Shown piece by piece: positions 9,172 through 18,301 of a stretch of 64,000 bases of DNA (the stretch's first letter is position 1; every line of letters starts with the position of its first letter). Both the position numbers and the translations under genes were made by a program. The DNA lies in NCBI GenBank assembly GCA_030431455.1, contig JAUIJE010000007.1:248001-312000 (forward strand). Reading direction: 5' to 3'. This DNA comes from a bacterium. GTDB lineage: Bacteria > Myxococcota > UBA727 > JAUIJE01. The notes beneath the pieces are model-generated. The model worked only from the letters and a program-made list of their open reading frames with translations. It had not been told where the DNA came from and ran no database searches.

Positions 9172-10530
9172 GTGCCCGACACGTGGCTGTTCCCGGATGC
9201 GATTGTCGACGAGAACGGCGCCGTTCATCGCGGGGCGGGCCTGCACCTTCGTGACAATGCCATTGTGGGGATGGTGACCGGCCCACCCCCGAATGATGCC
9301 GTCCGGCTCGCCGGCCGGGTGCTGTTGCCCGGCTTCGCCAACGGCCACTCCCACGCCTTTCAGCGGGCCCTGCGGGGCCGGGTCGAGCGCGCCCCCGACG
9401 CGGGCATCGAGGACGACTTTTGGACCTGGCGCACCGAGATGTACCGGCTGGCCGAGACCCTCGACGGTGACGGCCTGGCCGCGGTGTGCCGCTGGGCGTT
9501 CGCGGATATGGTGACAAGCGGCTTCGTCCGGGTGGGGGAGTTTCATTACCTGCACCACGTCGGGGCCCTGTCCCCGCGCGAGGTCGCCCACGTCGTGGCC
9601 GGGGCGGCCCAGGCGGTGGGCGTTCGGCTCAGCTTGCTGCACACCGGGTACTTCCAGGGCGGGTTTGGCCACGCCCCGTCAAAGGCCCAGCGGCGGTTCG
9701 TCGTCGGGGACGCGGACACGTTTTTGGCCCACGTCGACGCGGCGCGCGCGGACCTGCCCCAGGTCGAGCACGGGGTCGCGATCCACAGCGTGCGGGCCTG
9801 CGGCCCGGCCGAGATTCGGGCGCTGGCCGGCTACGCCGAGGCCTCTGACCTGCCGTTGCACGTGCACGTCAGCGAGCAGCGCAAAGAGGTCGCCGACTGC
9901 CGCGCGGCCCACGGGGTGTCCCCCATTCGGTTGCTCGCGGACTGCGGCGCGTTGTCGCCCCGCACGGTCCTGGTCCACGCCACGCACATCGACGACGAGG
10001 ACGTGGCCCTCATCGCCCAGGCGGGGGCGCTGGTGTGCGTGTGCCCGAGCACCGAGCGCAACCTCGGCGACGGGCTATGCCCCATTGTGAAGCTGTTCGA
10101 TGCGGGGGTGCGCCTCACGGTGGGGACCGACTCCCACGCGCGCATCGATGCATTCGACGAGGCCCGGTCCCTCGAGGACCACGAGCGGCTGCGCACCGAG
10201 CGGCGCGCGGTGTTGCGACGGCCCGGCCGGCCCGGCCTGTTCGGCGCGGTGATGCCCGCCCTGCTCGGCGACGGCCACGCCGCGCTCGGGGCGCGCGCCG
10301 GTACCCTGTCGCCGGGATCGCCCGCGGACGTGGTGGCAGTGAAAAGCCCACCTGAGCTGGTGCTCGGCGACGGCGATGCCGCGCCCGATGCGCTCCTGCT
10401 CGGGGCCGGCCCCGGCCACGTGACCGACGTGTGGGTGGCCGGGCGCCAAGTGGTCAAAGGGGGCGCGCCCACCCAAGTGGACCTCGCCCCCCTGCTGGCC
10501 CAGCTCGACCGGTCGCGTCAGCGCGCGTGA
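9172..10530 (+). CDS. hutF: Formimidoylglutamate deiminase
   Basis: An amidohydrolase-superfamily enzyme of 452 residues. It converts N-formimidoyl-L-glutamate to N-formyl-L-glutamate plus ammonia in the five-step histidine degradation route. Visible motifs are the metal-binding GHSHAFQRALRGR (near residue 60), FHYLHH, the HVSEQRKEV segment, VHATHID and the late GTDSHARID aspartate. These are characteristic of HutF rather than guanine deaminase, which shares the fold. The GTG start lies one base after the stop of the TPR gene. No hutH, hutU, hutI or hutG is present in this window, so the rest of the pathway must be elsewhere. The 3' end overlaps the convergent zinc-ribbon gene by 13 bases. 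Confidence 0.9.
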   Translation: MPDTWLFPDAIVDENGAVHRGAGLHLRDNAIVGMVTGPPPNDAVRLAGRVLLPGFANGHSHAFQRALRGRVERAPDAGIEDDFWTWRTEMYRLAETLDGDGLAAVCRWAFADMVTSGFVRVGEFHYLHHVGALSPREVAHVVAGAAQAVGVRLSLLHTGYFQGGFGHAPSKAQRRFVVGDADTFLAHVDAARADLPQVEHGVAIHSVRACGPAEIRALAGYAEASDLPLHVHVSEQRKEVADCRAAHGVSPIRLLADCGALSPRTVLVHATHIDDEDVALIAQAGALVCVCPSTERNLGDGLCPIVKLFDAGVRLTVGTDSHARIDAFDEARSLEDHERLRTERRAVLRRPGRPGLFGAVMPALLGDGHAALGARAGTLSPGSPADVVAVKSPPELVLGDGDAAPDALLLGAGPGHVTDVWVAGRQVVKGGAPTQVDLAPLLAQLDRSRQRA

Positions 10531-10937: not shown

Positions 10938-11072
10938 TTGCACTCCTCAAGGGCTGACAGGGTGCCCAAATCAAAGTCACCTGTCCACCCGGCGGCGCGG
11001 CTGTTCGCTCCCAACCCGGGATGTTTCGCGGCCCGGAACGGGTTATAAAGACGTCTCACGCTGAGGTTTTTG

Positions 11073-11885
11073 ATGAGCTTGTTCAAACGCATCGCCAACG
11101 TCGTCCGCTCCAACGTCAACGACGTGCTCGACAAAGCCGAGGATCCTCGAAAAATCCTCGATCAGACCATCTTGGACATGCAGAAAGAGCACAAGAGGGC
11201 GAAGCAGAAGCTCATCGAGACGATGACGCTGCAAAAGCAGAGCGAAAAACAGGCCGAGACGCTCGGCAAGCAGGCGGCGGAGTGGGAGCACAAGGCGATG
11301 GCCGCGCTCAAGGCGGGCGATGAGAGCCTCGCCCGCCAAGCCCTGACCGAAAAACAAAAGGTCGAGGAGATGGCCCAGGAAGCCACCGCCGGGTCCGCCC
11401 AGCAAAAAGGCTTCACCGAGGAGCTCAAGCGCAACGTGAAGGCCCTCGAAGAGAAGATCGAAGAGGCCAAGAAAAAACGCGACGAGCTCATCGCCCGGCT
11501 CAAGGCCGCGGAGATGAAAAAGAAGCAGGCGAGCATGTCCGAAAGCGGCGGCACCTCGGACGCGGTCTCGGACAGCAGCGCGTTCGACACGTTCGACCGC
11601 ATGGTCGAGCGCATCGAGCGCAGCGAAGCCGAGGTCGAGGCCCACAAAGAGCTGATGGGGGTCACCGCCAACGAGGTCGATGGGCAACTCGAGGCCCACT
11701 ACAAACAAAAGACCGAAGACGACCTGCTCGCCCAGCTCAAGGCCAAGATGGACGCGGAGAACGGCCCCGCCGCCGCCCCCGCGCCGGCCGCCGCGGCCGC
11801 CCCCGCCGCAGACGACGCGGCCGGCGACAAGTCCGCCGCCATCGACGACGAGCTGGCCGCGCTTCGGGCCAAGCTGGACGACTGA
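11073..11885 (+). CDS. pspA: Phage shock protein A / IM30 family protein
   Basis: A 270-residue coiled-coil protein of the ESCRT-III-like PspA/Vipp1 family, which binds the inner face of the cytoplasmic membrane and protects it under envelope stress. The amphipathic N-terminal helix (SLFKRIANVVRSNVNDVLDKAEDPRKILDQ) is intact and almost continuous helix follows to about residue 225. The last 40 residues form an Ala/Pro-rich segment and a short acidic tail that ordinary PspA lacks. ATG at 11073 has GAGG 7 bases upstream. No pspB, pspC or pspF neighbour is present, and I could not find a clean sigma-54 site upstream. A strong hairpin follows the stop. Confidence 0.92.
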   Translation: MSLFKRIANVVRSNVNDVLDKAEDPRKILDQTILDMQKEHKRAKQKLIETMTLQKQSEKQAETLGKQAAEWEHKAMAALKAGDESLARQALTEKQKVEEMAQEATAGSAQQKGFTEELKRNVKALEEKIEEAKKKRDELIARLKAAEMKKKQASMSESGGTSDAVSDSSAFDTFDRMVERIERSEAEVEAHKELMGVTANEVDGQLEAHYKQKTEDDLLAQLKAKMDAENGPAAAPAPAAAAAPAADDAAGDKSAAIDDELAALRAKLDD

Positions 11886-12135: not shown

Positions 12136-13041
12136 CTACGCGACGGTGCGGGCGCGGGCGGTGCGGACGGCGACCTTGCCGCCCGCGTCGATGGCGAGGG
12201 TGGCGTGGCCGAGGCGCAGGCCGGAGTGGCCGACCTGCATCACGTGCGTCTGGTGCCCGCCCTTGTGCGCGATGACGGTGGGCTCGTCGAGGAATGTGTG
12301 TGTATGGCCGCTCACGACGTAGTCGCAGCCGGGCACGTCCTTGGGCCAGTCGATGTCGCCGACCTCGCCGCGCGAGCCTTGGTACCCGAGGTGCGACACG
12401 CAGATCACGACGTCGCAGCGGCCCGCGCGCAGGGTCTCGATCTCGCGGCGCGCGGCCTCACGGGGGTCGGCGTAGTCGACGCCGCGGTGGAGCTTGGGGT
12501 TGACCAAACCCTCGAACGCGATGCCCAGCCCGAACAGGCCGACCTTGACCCCGGCGCGGTCGATCACGACCTGGGGGGTGACGAGGTCTTTGAGCGGGTT
12601 GACCTCGTCGAACGCGAAGTTGCTCACCACCGGGTGCATCAGGGGCGCGTGCTTGAGTTGGCGCACCAGGGTCTCGATCCCGGCGTCGAAATCGTGATTG
12701 CCGAGGCAGGTCGCGTCGTAGCCGAGCATGGCCATGGCCTTCATGTCGACTTCGCCCTGGAACGCGTTGAACCACGGCGTGCCCTGGAACGTGTCCCCCG
12801 CGTCGAGCAACACGCTGGCCGCGCTGGCGTCGCGGATGCGCTGGATGAGCGTGGCCCGGCGGGCCACCCCGCCCTGCCCGGCGTACTTGCCGCTGTCGAA
12901 GGGGAGCATGCGGCTGTGGGTGTCGTTGGTGTGCATCACCGCCAGCGACTTGCCGGTGGCGGCCCAGCTGCGGCGGGGGAGCATCAGGGTGGGCGCCACC
13001 GCGGCGGCCCCGGCCAAAAACGCGCGTCGGGTCTTGTTCAT
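12136..13041 (-). CDS. Exported 5'-nucleotidase-type metallophosphoesterase (catalytic half)
   Basis: A 301-residue protein with a twin-arginine-like signal (NKTRRAFLAGAAAVAP). It contains only the calcineurin-like phosphoesterase domain of the UshA/5'-nucleotidase family. Metal-ligand motifs are HTNDTHSR (near residue 37), DAGDTFQGTP, GNHDFDAG, the CVSHLGY histidine and SGHTHTFLD. The family's C-terminal substrate-binding domain is absent but is encoded by the gene immediately upstream, whose stop overlaps this ATG (ATGA). The two products are therefore probably made together and may form one enzyme that hydrolyses nucleotides or other phosphate esters in the periplasm. The start is fixed by the overlap and by the signal peptide. 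Confidence 0.9.
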   Translation of the reverse strand: MNKTRRAFLAGAAAVAPTLMLPRRSWAATGKSLAVMHTNDTHSRMLPFDSGKYAGQGGVARRATLIQRIRDASAASVLLDAGDTFQGTPWFNAFQGEVDMKAMAMLGYDATCLGNHDFDAGIETLVRQLKHAPLMHPVVSNFAFDEVNPLKDLVTPQVVIDRAGVKVGLFGLGIAFEGLVNPKLHRGVDYADPREAARREIETLRAGRCDVVICVSHLGYQGSRGEVGDIDWPKDVPGCDYVVSGHTHTFLDEPTVIAHKGGHQTHVMQVGHSGLRLGHATLAIDAGGKVAVRTARARTVA

Positions 13042-13832
13042 GAGGCCCCCGGCCCGCCGGCGCGCCCGTCGAGGACGGGGTCGATGGGCTGTCCCGCGGC
13101 CTGGGCGCGGAGGAAGGCGGCCTCGATCACGTCGCGCAGCAGCACGCCGGTGTAGACGGGGCCTTCGATGTCGCCGAGCTTGTAGTCGCCGCCCCCCTCG
13201 AACAGGTAGTCGTTGGTGCACACCGCGTAGCGCTTCTTGTGGTCGAGGGGCGCGTCCCCGACGACGATTTCGGTCGGGCCCGCCTCGGCCCGGGCGTACC
13301 GCAAGCCGCTGGCGGGGTCGCCGCGTTCGGCCAGGCGCCGCACAATCTTTTCCAGCCGTGCGCCGTCGACGGTGAACAGCACAATGCCATTGTCAAACGG
13401 CATCAGCTCCACCACCTGGCCGGCGGTGACCGACCCCGGGTCGAGGTCGATGCGCAGCCCGCCCATGTTGGTGAAGCACACGTCGGCCTTGACCCCGGCC
13501 ATCTCGAACACCCCGCTGCGCATCGCGTCGGTGACGAAATTGCCCATGCTGCTCTCGCCGTCGCGGTTGCGGGTCAAAGGCCCGGCCAGGGTGCCCACCA
13601 CCCGTTGGCTGCGGGCCTCGACCTGTTGGCGGTAGGGGTCCAAAAACGCCTGTACGCCCTCGTCGGCCGCGGTCTGGTCGTCGACCACCGTGGCCTGGGC
13701 CTGCACATCGACCTGTGGGGGGGGCTCAAACCCGGCGCCATCCCCGTCCCCCGCCCGATCCGGGGTGGACGCGCAGGCCGCGCCCAGAACCAGCCACAGC
13801 CAAAGGGCCACGCCGCACGAAGGCCGGATCAA
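13038..13832 (-). CDS. Lipoprotein carrying the 5'-nucleotidase C-terminal domain
   Basis: A 264-residue lipoprotein (signal followed by LGAAC, lipidated Cys20). From about residue 70 it contains the 5'-nucleotidase C-terminal domain, which binds the nucleoside. Recognisable parts are ESSMGNFVTDAMRSG, the NMGGLRIDLDPG (family NxGGxR) motif, LMPFDNGIVLFTVDGA and TNDYLFEGGGDY. It lacks any metallophosphoesterase domain; that half is the next gene, with an ATGA overlap. The apparent TTG start overlaps the stop of the upstream HEAT-repeat gene as TTGA. A GTG seven codons in is an alternative, but it would remove the basic n-region of the signal. Gene order is the reverse of domain order in UshA. 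Confidence 0.85.
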   Translation of the reverse strand: MIRPSCGVALWLWLVLGAACASTPDRAGDGDGAGFEPPPQVDVQAQATVVDDQTAADEGVQAFLDPYRQQVEARSQRVVGTLAGPLTRNRDGESSMGNFVTDAMRSGVFEMAGVKADVCFTNMGGLRIDLDPGSVTAGQVVELMPFDNGIVLFTVDGARLEKIVRRLAERGDPASGLRYARAEAGPTEIVVGDAPLDHKKRYAVCTNDYLFEGGGDYKLGDIEGPVYTGVLLRDVIEAAFLRAQAAGQPIDPVLDGRAGGPGAS

Positions 13833-15397
13833 AACCGCCCCCCGATGCTCGCCACCGGGACCGGCCGCCGGTTGTCGAACTGGTCGGCGACCGCCGAAAT
13901 CGTGGGCGGGTCGAGGTCAAAATCACCCGACAGGAGGGGGTCCCAGCTTTTGGGCGCGAGCAACGTGAGCGTCGCGCCCACCACCGCGCCGGTGGCGTAC
14001 CCGCCCGCCACCGCCCAGCCCGAGCCTTCGGTGAACGGGAACAGCTCGCTCTGCAACTGGAACGTCTCCACCAGGCCGGTGACCGTGCCCGCGAGCACGC
14101 CGAGGGCGGCGCCGCCGACGACCCCGCCCACGCAGGGCAGGATGCCGATCTCGTTGGGCCCGACCGCGATGGTGGTCAAAGCCCCCGCGCCCCCCGCGGC
14201 CAGCATCGCCACCCCCGCCGTCCCCTGCATGTCGAATCGCGACGAGAGCGCGATGCCGCCGAAGCCGACCGCGGTGGAAAACGCCACCGTCGCGCCCAGC
14301 GCGAGCGCCCCCGCCGACGGGGGCCGGGTCTCGTTGAGCAACACGCCGAACCCGGTGCCGACCAAGGTCCCGGCCAGGCCGTACGCGGACATGTTGAGCG
14401 CGGCCTCGGGCCCGGTGGCGCTCAAGGCCCCCAAGCCGTAGCCCGCCAGCGTGCCCAGCACGCCGAGCTGCACCACGGTCTGGGCCCGCACGAGGTCGTC
14501 GGCGCGGAAAAACGCGTAGGTCGCGCCGCCGACGGTGCCGGCCACAAAGCCGGTCAAGCCGCCCAGCGGCGACAGGGGCTGGAGCACGGGCCCGCCGTAG
14601 GTGGCCATGAACAGCCCGCCGTGCAGCCACCCGGCCATGCCGCCGAACAGGCCCACCCAGGCGGTGCTCGCGGCGACCTCGAGGCCGCTGGCCTGCGCGA
14701 TGAGGCGCCCCGGGGGTGGCACCACCTGCAGCTGGTTGCGGTCGGGATCGTAGGCCGCCCGCCGGTAGGTCAGGCCGTGGCGGTCCTTCAGGCGGTCGGC
14801 GTAGTCGAGAAAAAACGCGCCCACCCGGCGGTCTTCGTGGCCGACCTGGCCCGCGACCTCAGCCAGGGCTTCGGGCTGGCCGATGTTGGACAGGGCCCAG
14901 CCGGCCATGGTCACCACGTCGACGTCCGGGTCCTCGAGGGCGGCGACCAACACCGGGGTCTGGGGCGCGGACACCGGCTCGGGCAGCCGGCCGAGGCACT
15001 CCGCGGCCTGCCGGCGCACCAGCGCGTCGGGGTCGATGCGCAACACGCGACCACAGATGCGGGCGGTGGCCCGGCTGGGGTCGCGGTCGGCCAACAGCTG
15101 CAGGGCCCGAACCCGGACGTCGCGGTCGTCGGCGGTCCGGGCCGCGCGGCGCAGGATCGGCCGGGCGAGCTGGATGTCGCTGCTCTGGTACCGGTCGAGA
15201 TCGGCGATGCTCGGGGACGCAGGCGCGGGACGAATGCCGGCCGGGGCCGCCTCGGTCGTCGACGCGGCGGCGGGGTCGGCCACGTCCGCGATGTCCGCTG
15301 GCGGGGTCTTTGGTGCGGCCGCGGGCGTGTCCTCCGCGAGGACCGACCCGCTGAGCAGCCAGCAGGTTGTTATGCCGAGCAGAGCCGCGACGCGCAT
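13829..15397 (-). CDS. Exported HEAT-repeat and multi-pass membrane protein
   Basis: A 522-residue protein of unknown function. It starts at the Met before the signal RVAALLGITTCWLLSGSVLA. After an Ala/Pro-rich linker, residues about 65-190 form HEAT/PBS-type repeats (DVRVRALQLLADRDPSRAT, ALVRRQAAECLGRLPEP, DPDVDVVTMAGWALSNIG). The rest (about 230-495) is a series of Gly/Ala-rich hydrophobic segments typical of a multi-pass or glycine-zipper membrane domain. It is the first gene of an operon with the split 5'-nucleotidase (TTGA overlap). It is divergent from tldD, with about 100 bases between them for both promoters. Confidence 0.75.
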   Translation of the reverse strand: MRVAALLGITTCWLLSGSVLAEDTPAAAPKTPPADIADVADPAAASTTEAAPAGIRPAPASPSIADLDRYQSSDIQLARPILRRAARTADDRDVRVRALQLLADRDPSRATARICGRVLRIDPDALVRRQAAECLGRLPEPVSAPQTPVLVAALEDPDVDVVTMAGWALSNIGQPEALAEVAGQVGHEDRRVGAFFLDYADRLKDRHGLTYRRAAYDPDRNQLQVVPPPGRLIAQASGLEVAASTAWVGLFGGMAGWLHGGLFMATYGGPVLQPLSPLGGLTGFVAGTVGGATYAFFRADDLVRAQTVVQLGVLGTLAGYGLGALSATGPEAALNMSAYGLAGTLVGTGFGVLLNETRPPSAGALALGATVAFSTAVGFGGIALSSRFDMQGTAGVAMLAAGGAGALTTIAVGPNEIGILPCVGGVVGGAALGVLAGTVTGLVETFQLQSELFPFTEGSGWAVAGGYATGAVVGATLTLLAPKSWDPLLSGDFDLDPPTISAVADQFDNRRPVPVASIGGRF

Positions 15398-15500
15398 GAA
15401 GGGGACCTTAGCCGAAGACACCGGCAAGTACACGCACGCGCGCACGGCTTGGGTGCTTTTCCTTTTTCCAGTCACGCCGTATGCGGGCCTGACGAGGACA

Positions 15501-16916
15501 ATGATGGCTGAATCCCTGTTGGACCCGACTTTGGTTTCCCGTTTGCTCGGTCGCGCGCTCGGCCAGGGCGCGGGCTTTGCTGAAGTCTACGTGCAAAAGC
15601 GCCGCTCCCTGGGCATCGAGCTCGACGACGGCAACATCAAAAGCGCCCAGGCCGGGACCACCCACGGGGTCGGCATCCGCGTGGTCAATGGGGCGCAGGT
15701 CGCGTACGCGCACTCGGACGACCTGTCCGAGGAGGCGTTGCTCGCCTGCGCCGACGCGGTCTCGCGCATCGGGGACGGCACCGCCGACCTCGCGGTGGCC
15801 AAGCCGTTGTCCGAGAAGGACCGGCCCCACCTCGCCGACCCCGACGCGGCCTCGGCCGGGTTCACCGTCGACGACAAGCTCGCCCTGCTCCGCCGCGCCG
15901 ACGATTGCGCACGCCGCGAAGCGCCCCACCTCTTCCGGGTCCTGGGCGGCTACGCGGACATCGACGAACAGATCCTGATCGCGAACAGCGAGGGGTTGCT
16001 CATCGAGGACACCCGCGCGCTGTGCCGGCTCAACCTGCAGGTGATCCTCAAAGAAACGGACGGCCGGCCGCGGGTCGGCTCCTACGGGGGCGGTTCTCGT
16101 CGAGGGGTGGCCCACTATCGCGACCTTCAAGACCCCGAGTCCATCGCCCAGGAAGCGGTGCGCATGGCCCAGGCCCAAATGGGGGCCAAGCCCGCCCCCT
16201 CGGGCGAGCAAGTGGTGGTGCTCGGCCCCGCCTCGTCGGGCATCCTGCTGCACGAAGCGGTGGGCCACGGGCTGGAAGCGGACTTCATCCGAAAGAAGAG
16301 CAGCCTGTTCGCGGGGCGGCTGGGCGAAAAGGTCGCCAGCGAGCTGTGCACGGTGATCGACGACGGCACCATCGAACACGCGCGCGGGAGCCTCAACGTC
16401 GACGACGAGGGCACCCCCACCCGGCGCAACGTGTTGATCGAAAAAGGGGTGCTCAAGGGGTTCATCTCCGATCGCATCAACGCCGACCTGCTCGGCCACG
16501 AGCGTTCGGGCAACGGCCGGCGCCAGAGCTTCCGCCACAAGCCCATGCCCCGCATGACCAACACGTTCTTGCAGCCCGGGGAGCACGACGCGGAAGAGAT
16601 CCTCAAAGGGGTCAAGCGGGGGCTGTACTGCCGCGCGTTCGGCGGCGGCCAGGTCGACATCGCCAACGGCAACTTCGTGTTCGAGGTGCGCGAGGGCTAC
16701 GTCATCGAAGACGGCAAGCTCACCCACCCCGTGCAGGGCGCGACCTTGGTCGGCAACGGCCCAGAGACATTGGGCAAAGTCAGCCGCGTGGGGGGCGACG
16801 CCGGGTTTGACCCGGGCATCTATACCTGTGGCAAGGGCGGCCAGTCGGTGCCCGTCACCGTGGGCTTGCCCACCGTGCGCATCGACGGCGTCACCGTCGG
16901 AGGGACCAACGCATGA
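15501..16916 (+). CDS. tldD: Metalloprotease TldD
   Basis: The protease subunit of the TldD/TldE heterodimer, which degrades unfolded peptides and matures some modified peptides such as microcin B17. It has 471 residues. The zinc motif HEAVGH at residues 251-256 sits in GILLHEAVGHGLEADF, with the characteristic DEGTPTRRNVLIEKGVLKG, RMTNTFLQPG and FGGGQVDIANGNFVFEV segments downstream. ATG at 15501, or the adjacent ATG at 15504, has GAGG just upstream. It overlaps tldE by ATGA, consistent with equimolar production. TldD/E often acts on leader peptides of RiPPs; whether it touches the bufferin-like precursor 32 kb away is only speculation. Confidence 0.95.
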   Translation: MMAESLLDPTLVSRLLGRALGQGAGFAEVYVQKRRSLGIELDDGNIKSAQAGTTHGVGIRVVNGAQVAYAHSDDLSEEALLACADAVSRIGDGTADLAVAKPLSEKDRPHLADPDAASAGFTVDDKLALLRRADDCARREAPHLFRVLGGYADIDEQILIANSEGLLIEDTRALCRLNLQVILKETDGRPRVGSYGGGSRRGVAHYRDLQDPESIAQEAVRMAQAQMGAKPAPSGEQVVVLGPASSGILLHEAVGHGLEADFIRKKSSLFAGRLGEKVASELCTVIDDGTIEHARGSLNVDDEGTPTRRNVLIEKGVLKGFISDRINADLLGHERSGNGRRQSFRHKPMPRMTNTFLQPGEHDAEEILKGVKRGLYCRAFGGGQVDIANGNFVFEVREGYVIEDGKLTHPVQGATLVGNGPETLGKVSRVGGDAGFDPGIYTCGKGGQSVPVTVGLPTVRIDGVTVGGTNA

Positions 16917-18301
16917 GCGACTACGGACAACTCAAGCACCGCGCCCAGCGCCTGGCCGAACGCCTCTGCGAGACCGCCCAAAAACGCGGCGCCCAGGCCG
17001 CCGACGCCACCTGTGGCTTCGGCTCCAGCCTCTCGGCCAAGGCCCGGGACGGCGAAGTCGAAGACATCACCCGCAGCTCGTCCAACGGCGCGGGCGTGCG
17101 CGTCATCGTCGACGGCAAGCTCGGCTTTGCCACCTCAGCCGCGGCCCCGCAGAACGACGACGACATCGAACGGCTGTGCCAACAGGCCATCGACCTGGCC
17201 AAGATCGCCACCCCCAGCGAGCACAACGTCATCCCCGCGCCCACCGCGCCCACCGACGACGAGCTCGACGCCACGGTCAAGACCCTCGGCCTGTACGACG
17301 AGACCACCGCCGAAGCCTCGCCGGATTGGGCCATCGACAATGCCATTGTGCTCGCCCGGGTGGTGCAAGGCACCCCCGGGATCGAGACCGTGCGCGAGGT
17401 CAGCGCCGCCGCGGGCAAGAGCGTGTTCGCCCTCGCCACCTCGACGGGTTTTGCCGGCAGCTACGGCGGCACCAGCGCCCACCTCTACGCGGGGGCGGTG
17501 GCCAAAGACGGCGACAAGAACCAGGTCGACGGCTGGTGGGTCGCGTCCCGCCGCATGGACCAGCTCGACGACCCCGAGGCGGTGGCCCGGCGGGCCACCA
17601 CGCGCGCCCTCGCCCGCTGCGGGGCCAAGAAGGTCCCGACCACCAAGGCCGCGGTGGTGTTCGACCCCGACATGGCCCGCACCTTCCTCGGCGCGGTGCT
17701 GTCTGGCATCGACGGCGAGCGCGTGGCCAAGCAGGCGTCGTTCCTGGGGGGCAAACAAGGCGAGGCGGTGTTCATCCCTGGGCACGCCCTGCGCGACGTG
17801 CCGCTCCTCGCCGGCGCGCTCGGTTCGCGGCCGTTTGACGGTGAAGGCCAAAAGGTCACCGACGCCACCCTCATCGACGACCAGGGCGTGCTCCAGAGCT
17901 ACCTGCTCGATGCCCGCAGCGCGAGCGAACTCTCCCTGCCCCTCACCGGTCACGCCGGCCGCGGGGCCACCGGGCGGCCGGGGCCGAGCATCTCGAACAT
18001 CGTCATCGACGGGGGCGAAGGGTCGCTGGACGACATCGTGGCCGACACCGCGCGGGGGTTGCTGGTCACCCACCTGATGGGCCACAGCCCGGACATGATC
18101 ACCGGCGAATACAGCCGCGGGGCGGCCGGGTTCTGGATCGAGGACGGGCAGATCGTGCACCCCGTCGAGGAGATCACCATCGCCGGGGACATGCTGGACA
18201 TGATGCGCGGCATCGACCGGGTGGGGGCCGACGCCGACCTGCGCTCGTCGGTGCGGGCGCCGACCATCCGCTTTGCCCAGTTGACCATCAGCGGGTCATG
18301 A
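16913..18301 (+). CDS. tldE: TldE/PmbA, non-catalytic partner of TldD
   Basis: A 462-residue TldE/PmbA protein without the HExxxH motif, as expected for the partner that narrows the TldD cleft. Family features are the N-terminal ADATCGFGSSLSAKARDGEVEDITRS, EHNVIPAPTAP, the GRPGPSISNIVIDGGEGS region and the C-terminal GEYSRGAAGFWIEDGQIVHPVEEITIAG. The start codon overlaps the tldD stop (ATGA). The stop codon lies inside a perfect 18-bp palindrome (18290-18307), followed by a second small hairpin. Confidence 0.95.
   Translation: MSDYGQLKHRAQRLAERLCETAQKRGAQAADATCGFGSSLSAKARDGEVEDITRSSSNGAGVRVIVDGKLGFATSAAAPQNDDDIERLCQQAIDLAKIATPSEHNVIPAPTAPTDDELDATVKTLGLYDETTAEASPDWAIDNAIVLARVVQGTPGIETVREVSAAAGKSVFALATSTGFAGSYGGTSAHLYAGAVAKDGDKNQVDGWWVASRRMDQLDDPEAVARRATTRALARCGAKKVPTTKAAVVFDPDMARTFLGAVLSGIDGERVAKQASFLGGKQGEAVFIPGHALRDVPLLAGALGSRPFDGEGQKVTDATLIDDQGVLQSYLLDARSASELSLPLTGHAGRGATGRPGPSISNIVIDGGEGSLDDIVADTARGLLVTHLMGHSPDMITGEYSRGAAGFWIEDGQIVHPVEEITIAGDMLDMMRGIDRVGADADLRSSVRAPTIRFAQLTISGS

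Follow-up and report, generated by a model that had tools for sequence, protein, structure and literature searches.

Gene Arrangement at the Locus

Two genes encoding the two domains of UshA-type 5'-nucleotidases lie next to each other in the window, as we call the whole 64,000-nucleotide stretch of DNA analyzed here. Gene 1 (13038..13832, minus strand; TTG start, 264 aa, TGA stop) encodes a protein of the PF02872 family (5_nucleotid_C), which it matched in Pfam with an E-value of 2.7e-26 (93 bits, cut-off 23.6). Gene 2 (12136..13041, minus strand; ATG start, 301 aa) encodes a PF00149 (Metallophos) protein (E 6.9e-16, 59.7 bits, cut-off 21.5), and neither gene matched any other Pfam family at E 0.001. 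As read from the sequence, the gene 1 stop codon and the gene 2 start codon have an ATGA in common (13038..13041, minus strand), an overlap that is likely to couple the translation of the two genes, and the start of gene 1 shares a TTGA (13829..13832, minus strand) with the stop of an upstream HEAT-repeat gene recognized by Pfam (13829..15475, minus strand). The HEAT-repeat gene and the pair are probably carried on one transcript, and the next gene downstream of gene 2, a PspA-type gene by Pfam (11070..11885), runs in the opposite direction. A search with Rfam at the gathering score matched no RNA element between 11600 and 15800, and no promoter or terminator patterns were found between 11800 and 14100.

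The two products start with different export-type signals, one twin-arginine (Tat) type and one lipoprotein type, as had been predicted from the sequence alone. The N-terminus of the gene 1 product has a hydrophobic stretch followed by the lipobox-like LGAAC, which ends a lipoprotein-type signal at Cys20 (13773..13832, minus strand; assigned by eye and by a lipobox pattern match only), and the gene 2 product begins with the twin-arginine-type signal MNKTRRAFLAG...RSWA (12961..13041, minus strand; assigned by eye, with the motif counted in relatives). The coordinates, the ATGA overlap between two distinct genes, and the order with the gene for the C-terminal domain first were also as claimed in the original prediction. 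Its further statement that UshA-type enzymes are single chains with the catalytic domain first holds for all 45 fused relatives with both domains detected, and the order of the two genes is therefore more than a matter of chance.

Elsewhere in the window, an amidohydrolase gene (9172-10530, plus strand) exceeded the cut-offs of two NCBIfam models of formimidoylglutamate deiminase (NF006681 and TIGR02022 hutF). Two adjacent, overlapping genes for PmbA/TldD-family metallopeptidases (14883-16916 and 16913-18301, plus strand) form a probable TldD/TldE pair; the true start of the first frame is probably further downstream because its domains begin only at residue 233.

Occurrence of the Split Pair in Other Bacteria

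A scan of named genomes yielded 80 loci, the best 80 of 555 confirmed, and in 76 of them the PF02872 gene is separate from the PF00149 gene and lies upstream of it on the same strand. These 80 loci represent Bacteroidota, Balneolota, Acidobacteriota, Gemmatimonadota, Myxococcota, Calditrichota and other phyla, the majority coming from Bacteroidota and other phyla than Myxococcota. The remaining four are a single open frame (L056) and three loci without an adjacent partner (L055, L061 and L067). In each of the three latter genomes a single stand-alone PF02872 gene lies at another site, and the flanks examined there contain no catalytic gene (the upstream flank of L252 was short). In the 78 of 80 other pairs for which the start could be assigned, the two genes overlap by 4 bases in 23 cases and by 1 base in 14, and the distance between them is at most 20 bases in 70.

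The original prediction had raised the possibility that a sequencing mistake joins the frames. We found nothing to suggest that a single fused gene had been broken by an error in sequencing or assembly, and we regard the probability of such an error as negligible: the gene order is the reverse of that in the 45 fused proteins, there are two signal-type starts, and the error is excluded in practice because the separate order recurs in those 76 of the 80 other loci.

In a first look at 39 Myxococcota genomes, the own genome included, gene 1 had a match in 27. The best match was a stand-alone gene in G002, G025, G032 and G001, followed each time by the catalytic gene with an overlap of a few bases. 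A survey of 144 sampled Myxococcota genomes that were at least 90% complete was then evaluated with a five-sequence profile (A2) at E-values up to 1e-25, and 72 of them gave matches. Copies of at least 366 bits were present in only four genomes (the own genome, G001, G002 and G025), whose high scores arise by construction because all four are rows of the profile. All other Myxococcota matches listed scored 143 bits or less and lay in frames of at least 482 aa, except that in G062 (329 aa, 120 bits). Profile A2 gave 152 bits for L046 and 176 bits for L065, two named Myxococcota loci that carry the pair, and similar copies would thus have stood out in the survey. The two-gene arrangement, which the original prediction had suggested looking for in other Myxococcota, was found there in only these 4 of the 144 sampled genomes and at the two named loci; the split pair is rare in this phylum.

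Among 118 Bacteroidota genomes, 51 gave a match at E 1e-10, and 26 of the 118 harbor a stand-alone copy. These copies, which score from about 142 bits upward and lie in frames of 241-352 aa, are clearly set apart from the other matches (at most 128 bits, frames of at least 479 aa). The catalytic gene is located downstream on the same strand of all 26 stand-alone copies, although at L226, L229 and L238 it is found only about 400 bases or more beyond the binding gene. A plasmid record of Bacteroides finegoldii (NZ_OY725905.1) contains the pair in the same order and on the same strand with 26 bases between the genes, annotated as "5'-nucleotidase" (WP_007756805.1) and "metallophosphatase" (WP_032839871.1). 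RefSeq names the two genes separately, and the texts, in the extent to which the open library searched provides them, contained no description of a split UshA. The split is not peculiar to this genome: the same pair recurs in several phyla, and it is a real, conserved arrangement.

The genes surrounding the pair were compared using the 16 largest clusters of neighboring frames around 85 loci. The clusters that could be named by eye (dnaA, dapA, ligA, mnmA and hpt) are each confined to one lineage, and no functional neighbor recurring across phyla was found among the listed clusters, the only one that crosses phyla besides the pair being a cluster of antisense frames. No relative of the HEAT-repeat gene was found beside the pair at L040-L043 and L046, and the match at L065 was at chance level (E 0.45).

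Some individual loci showed features of their own. At five related Acidobacteriota loci (L070, L082, L083, L094 and L096), there is an upstream gene on the opposite strand that by eye resembles that for hypoxanthine phosphoribosyltransferase, which could fit purine salvage or could reflect chance within one lineage. In a Longimicrobiales MAG (L069:650-2857), the PF02872 part and an amidohydrolase domain (PF01979) share one 736-aa frame that is followed by the catalytic gene with an ATGA overlap, which may hint at further processing of the product. In CP034120.1 (L066), labelled Glaciecola amylolytica, the catalytic gene and its upstream neighbor group with Fluviicola, and the record may therefore be mislabelled or the region transferred.

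Comparison of the Split Halves with the Fused Chain

To compare the two halves with the fused enzymes, profiles of both split families were aligned with the fused proteins, 21 of the 45 passing a filter for coverage of the ends. Over these 21 proteins the median corrected gap between the halves was -1 residue (range -12 to 14, with one outlier at 57); the two halves together tile a fused chain almost exactly.

The relationship between split and fused forms was analyzed in trees. When the fused members came from Myxococcota only and no rows were left out, the split proteins of gene 2 separated cleanly (98), and those of gene 1 did not with all 28 Myxococcota fused rows kept, 2 changes being needed. 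The trees were enlarged by including further Myxococcota as well as fused proteins of other phyla, to 84 (gene 2) or 81 (gene 1) split rows versus 37 fused rows, seven long-branch rows being left out. In these enlarged trees the split proteins of gene 1 and of gene 2 each occupy one side of a branch with an SH-aLRT value of 99, and both halves from the window fall with their split relatives, apart from the fused proteins. A single origin of the split pair is favored by these trees, which give no direction; because they are quick trees without bootstrap, they do not prove it.

The structural model of the gene 1 product obtained with AlphaFold2 (mean pLDDT 89.9, pTM 0.79) corresponds to UshA from its linker helix through to the chain end, and also to the matching part of CD73. 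Its residues 55-261 align with residues 340-550 of UshA (1ush; Z 23.1, rmsd 3.6, 198 aligned), and the best row was the Thermus 5'-nucleotidase 2z1a (Z 25.4, rmsd 2.3, 188 aligned). Both Pfam and this model comparison place a PF02872 domain of the UshA/CD73 fold in the gene 1 product, and the linker helix of the fused enzymes sits in this product as well (model helix 58-75).

The PF00149 domain of the gene 2 product carries the residues D40, H42, D83, N115, H116, D119, H217, H246 and H248, which we take to be the expected UshA/CD73 dimetal ligands and His-Asp dyad. All of them, together with D80, are invariant in the 84 split catalytic proteins; R62 is kept in 82 of the 84, and R44 and R61 are variable. 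An RRxF-like twin-arginine motif is present in 68 of the 84, most of the other 16 having RK or KR. The lipobox pattern was detected in 58 of the 81 split binding proteins, a count that includes at least two false positives (L108 and L111) and several visible misses, and the lipid-carrying Cys is apparently missing in several binding proteins from Acidobacteriota.

Evidence for a Probable Two-subunit Enzyme

We consider that the pair probably encodes a two-subunit, exported UshA/CD73-like phosphohydrolase made up of an anchored binding subunit and a soluble dimetal subunit. The gene 2 product would be a dimetal metallophosphoesterase that is probably folded and loaded with metal in the cytoplasm and exported by Tat, and the gene 1 product would be a lipoprotein exported by Sec that carries both the substrate-binding domain and the linker helix found in fused enzymes. 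Once beyond the inner membrane, the catalytic subunit would dock on the anchored one approximately where the N-domain sits in UshA, and a substrate held by the aromatic pair F146/Y209 could then reach the dimetal site. From these features we infer the complex, the membrane location, the use of Tat and Sec, a nucleotide substrate, and a role in salvage or phosphate scavenging.

The one-frame copy in a Geothrix MAG (L056:2191-3951), in which the binding part is followed by the catalytic part and a Tat-like motif is left in mid-frame, was used to model both halves in one chain. The family to which the L102 genome belongs gave matches at E 1e-60 in 51 of 61 genomes, and a stop codon separates the two parts in all 31 loci read. 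Because the 31 relatives read have a stop at that point, L056 served only as a chain to fold, and its use as evolutionary proof of interaction was dropped. The AlphaFold2 model, based on an alignment of 48 rows of which 10 span both parts via a stop codon read as a residue, had a pTM of 0.81, with the two halves confidently placed; by an arithmetic estimate, placing the halves wrongly by 20-15 angstrom would lower the pTM to about 0.53-0.57, whereas deviations of 5-3 angstrom would give 0.77-0.83. The model supports a preferred docking of the two halves, which may be an echo of the solved UshA/CD73 structures. When the model was compared with solved structures, the top VIA-align rows, among them CD73 (7jv8; Z 30.9, 257 aligned) and UshA (1ush; Z 28.8, 259 aligned), covered its catalytic half only, and the SoxB rows begin at residue 25. 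Foldseek TM-scores by query length stayed close to 0.4 in the rows listed, which is in keeping with a swapped domain order. The conserved pairing fits a soluble catalytic part working with an anchored specificity part, as in the original prediction, and docking of the two in the cell is plausible.

The two products might also act independently, gene 2 as a stand-alone secreted phosphodiesterase or phosphatase and gene 1 as a nucleoside-binding lipoprotein for uptake or sensing, the genes being merely co-expressed. According to the accessible parts of the published reports, the N-terminal domain of E. coli UshA alone hydrolyzes ATP, ADP and pNPP with lower affinity and does not hydrolyze AMP (PMC8475336), and the isolated N domain of E. 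coli CpdB is poor on 3'-AMP and dinucleotides and active on 2',3'-cyclic nucleotides (PMC7922932), so that gene 2 could act alone. The genes are also unlinked in the three genomes mentioned above, and the own genome has five PF02872 matches, namely gene 1, three fused UshA-like proteins (L003, L004 and L005) and an orphan, a 303-aa lipoprotein-like protein (L001:1363-2274, contig 25) with no metallophosphoesterase gene in the 3.5 kb examined. However, both genes are present in all three genomes in which they are unlinked, the catalytic gene follows on the same strand in every one of the 26 Bacteroidota copies sampled, the two halves add up to the fused chain with the linker helix included, and AlphaFold2 places them together. 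We regard independent action as unlikely.

Binding Site and Substrate

Numbering on UshA was checked on a printed alignment of the gene 1 product with UshA. The aromatic pair and the Arg410 equivalent are present in the gene 1 product as F146, Y209 and R127. The equivalent of UshA R410 (R127) is Arg in 78 of the 81 split binding proteins, that of F429 (F146) is Phe or Tyr in all 81, that of N431 (N148) is Asn in all 81, and that of F498 (Y209), a Tyr in the window protein, is aromatic in all 81. A basic residue occupies position 88 in 62 of the 81. R88 and R90 lie inside the region of the loop with Arg375 and Arg379 of UshA, presumably the phosphate-contact pair, a loop that varies and whose alignment is uncertain. 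Asp504 of UshA, which we take to be a ribose contact, is replaced by G215 in the window protein. The equivalent position is Asp in 50 of the 81 split and 21 of the 28 fused proteins, and Gly in 24 of the split proteins, the window protein included. A group-wide loss of D504 and of the phosphate Arg loop in the split C-domains, which we had considered, is wrong, the Asp being kept in those 50.

These substitutions bear on the substrate: instead of 5'-nucleotides, a two-subunit enzyme could act on 3'-nucleotides, on cyclic nucleotides or dinucleotides, on NAD or nucleotide sugars, or on phosphoesters that are not nucleotides. Such a substrate would be a variant of the two-subunit explanation and compatible with it, and we hold it to be possible but somewhat doubtful. 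The Gly for Asp504 and the Tyr for Phe498 in the window protein and the variable R375/R379 loop point in its direction, as do the two tyrosines proposed for CpdB in the available part of that report (PMC8071527) and the mixed NCBIfam matches. No NCBIfam model reaches its cut-off on the pair, the sub-cut-off matches being a mixture of UshA, CpdB, NadN and SoxB, and the equivalog cut-offs for CpdB, SoxB and NadN are likewise not reached. Against another substrate stand the Asp kept at the 504 equivalent in most split proteins and the almost complete conservation of R127 and F146.

Discussion

The two-subunit reading draws on the domains, their order and overlap, the export-type motifs, the invariant catalytic residues, the tiling of the chain, the grouping of both halves apart from the fused forms, and the presence of both genes even when unlinked. 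Against it are the Gly at the D504 equivalent, the relatives without a lipobox or RR motif, the unclean separation of gene 1 with all rows kept, the NCBIfam cut-offs that are not reached and the absence, among the clusters listed, of a recognizable neighbor that recurs across phyla.

The pair resembles UshA and CD73 in both domains, the expected metal and dyad residues, the aromatic binding pair, the linker helix and an export-type signal. In contrast, UshA and CD73 are one chain with the catalytic domain first, and the window has two genes with the binding domain first and differing export-type signals, as well as Gly where UshA has Asp504; because it is not one chain, the pair was not filed as UshA. 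CpdB, the 2',3'-cyclic nucleotide phosphodiesterase/3'-nucleotidase, shares the same two domain families and the Tyr in the binding site but is one chain, and the CpdB model scores of the pair (84.6 of 486 bits and 78.3 of 883 bits) are below the cut-off. The SoxB thiosulfohydrolase has a related fold of both halves; it is also one chain, and the SoxB model score of the pair (81.1 of 550 bits) is below the cut-off. The pair from Bacteroides finegoldii has the same order and strand, and other Bacteroidota pairs group with the window pair in the trees, from which the NZ_OY725905.1 pair itself is absent. The two differ in that the window genes overlap in an ATGA and follow a HEAT-repeat gene, whereas those of Bacteroides finegoldii are separated; the window gene 2 product is 37% identical to its Bacteroides finegoldii counterpart over 86% of its length.

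The distribution of the pair can be compared with a 2023 catalogue of ushA-like genes, in which, as far as its accessible text goes, a match is defined by a score >150 and a query coverage >70% (PMC10454023). Acidobacteriota, Balneolota, Calditrichota, Gemmatimonadota and Rhodothermota are given there as ushA-negative phyla, Flavobacteriia, Cytophagia and Chitinophagia as ushA-negative classes, and Balneolota, Calditrichota and Gemmatimonadota as cpdB-positive (PMC10454023). Judged by record titles and taxonomic ranks, split pairs occur in phyla that the accessible text gives as ushA-negative and in families of its ushA-negative classes. A split and reordered pair would be unlikely to pass these criteria, and split pairs may supply ushA-type activity in such lineages.

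Catalysis by UshA depends on a 96-degree domain rotation (PMC8475336), and domain-swap chimeras of UshA and CpdB have been described (PMC8071527), both in the available parts of these sources. We tentatively propose, as an idea of some plausibility, that the pair represents a two-subunit nucleotidase family of its own that separated long ago. In this family the Tat-exported dimetal subunit would dock on the anchored binding lipoprotein, perhaps with subsequent release, in place of the hinge-bending rotation of UshA, and the family would supply ushA-type activity in lineages catalogued as ushA-negative, such as Flavobacteriia, Cytophagia, Chitinophagia and Acidobacteriota.

The pair looks like a little-described two-part enzyme that is real rather than accidental. 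The mechanism proposed for UshA requires its binding domain to swing widely around a covalent hinge. With a natural version made of two proteins that have separate export-type signals, one could test directly which step depends on the covalent connection. Such an enzyme could also revise our view of which bacteria can clip extracellular nucleotides.
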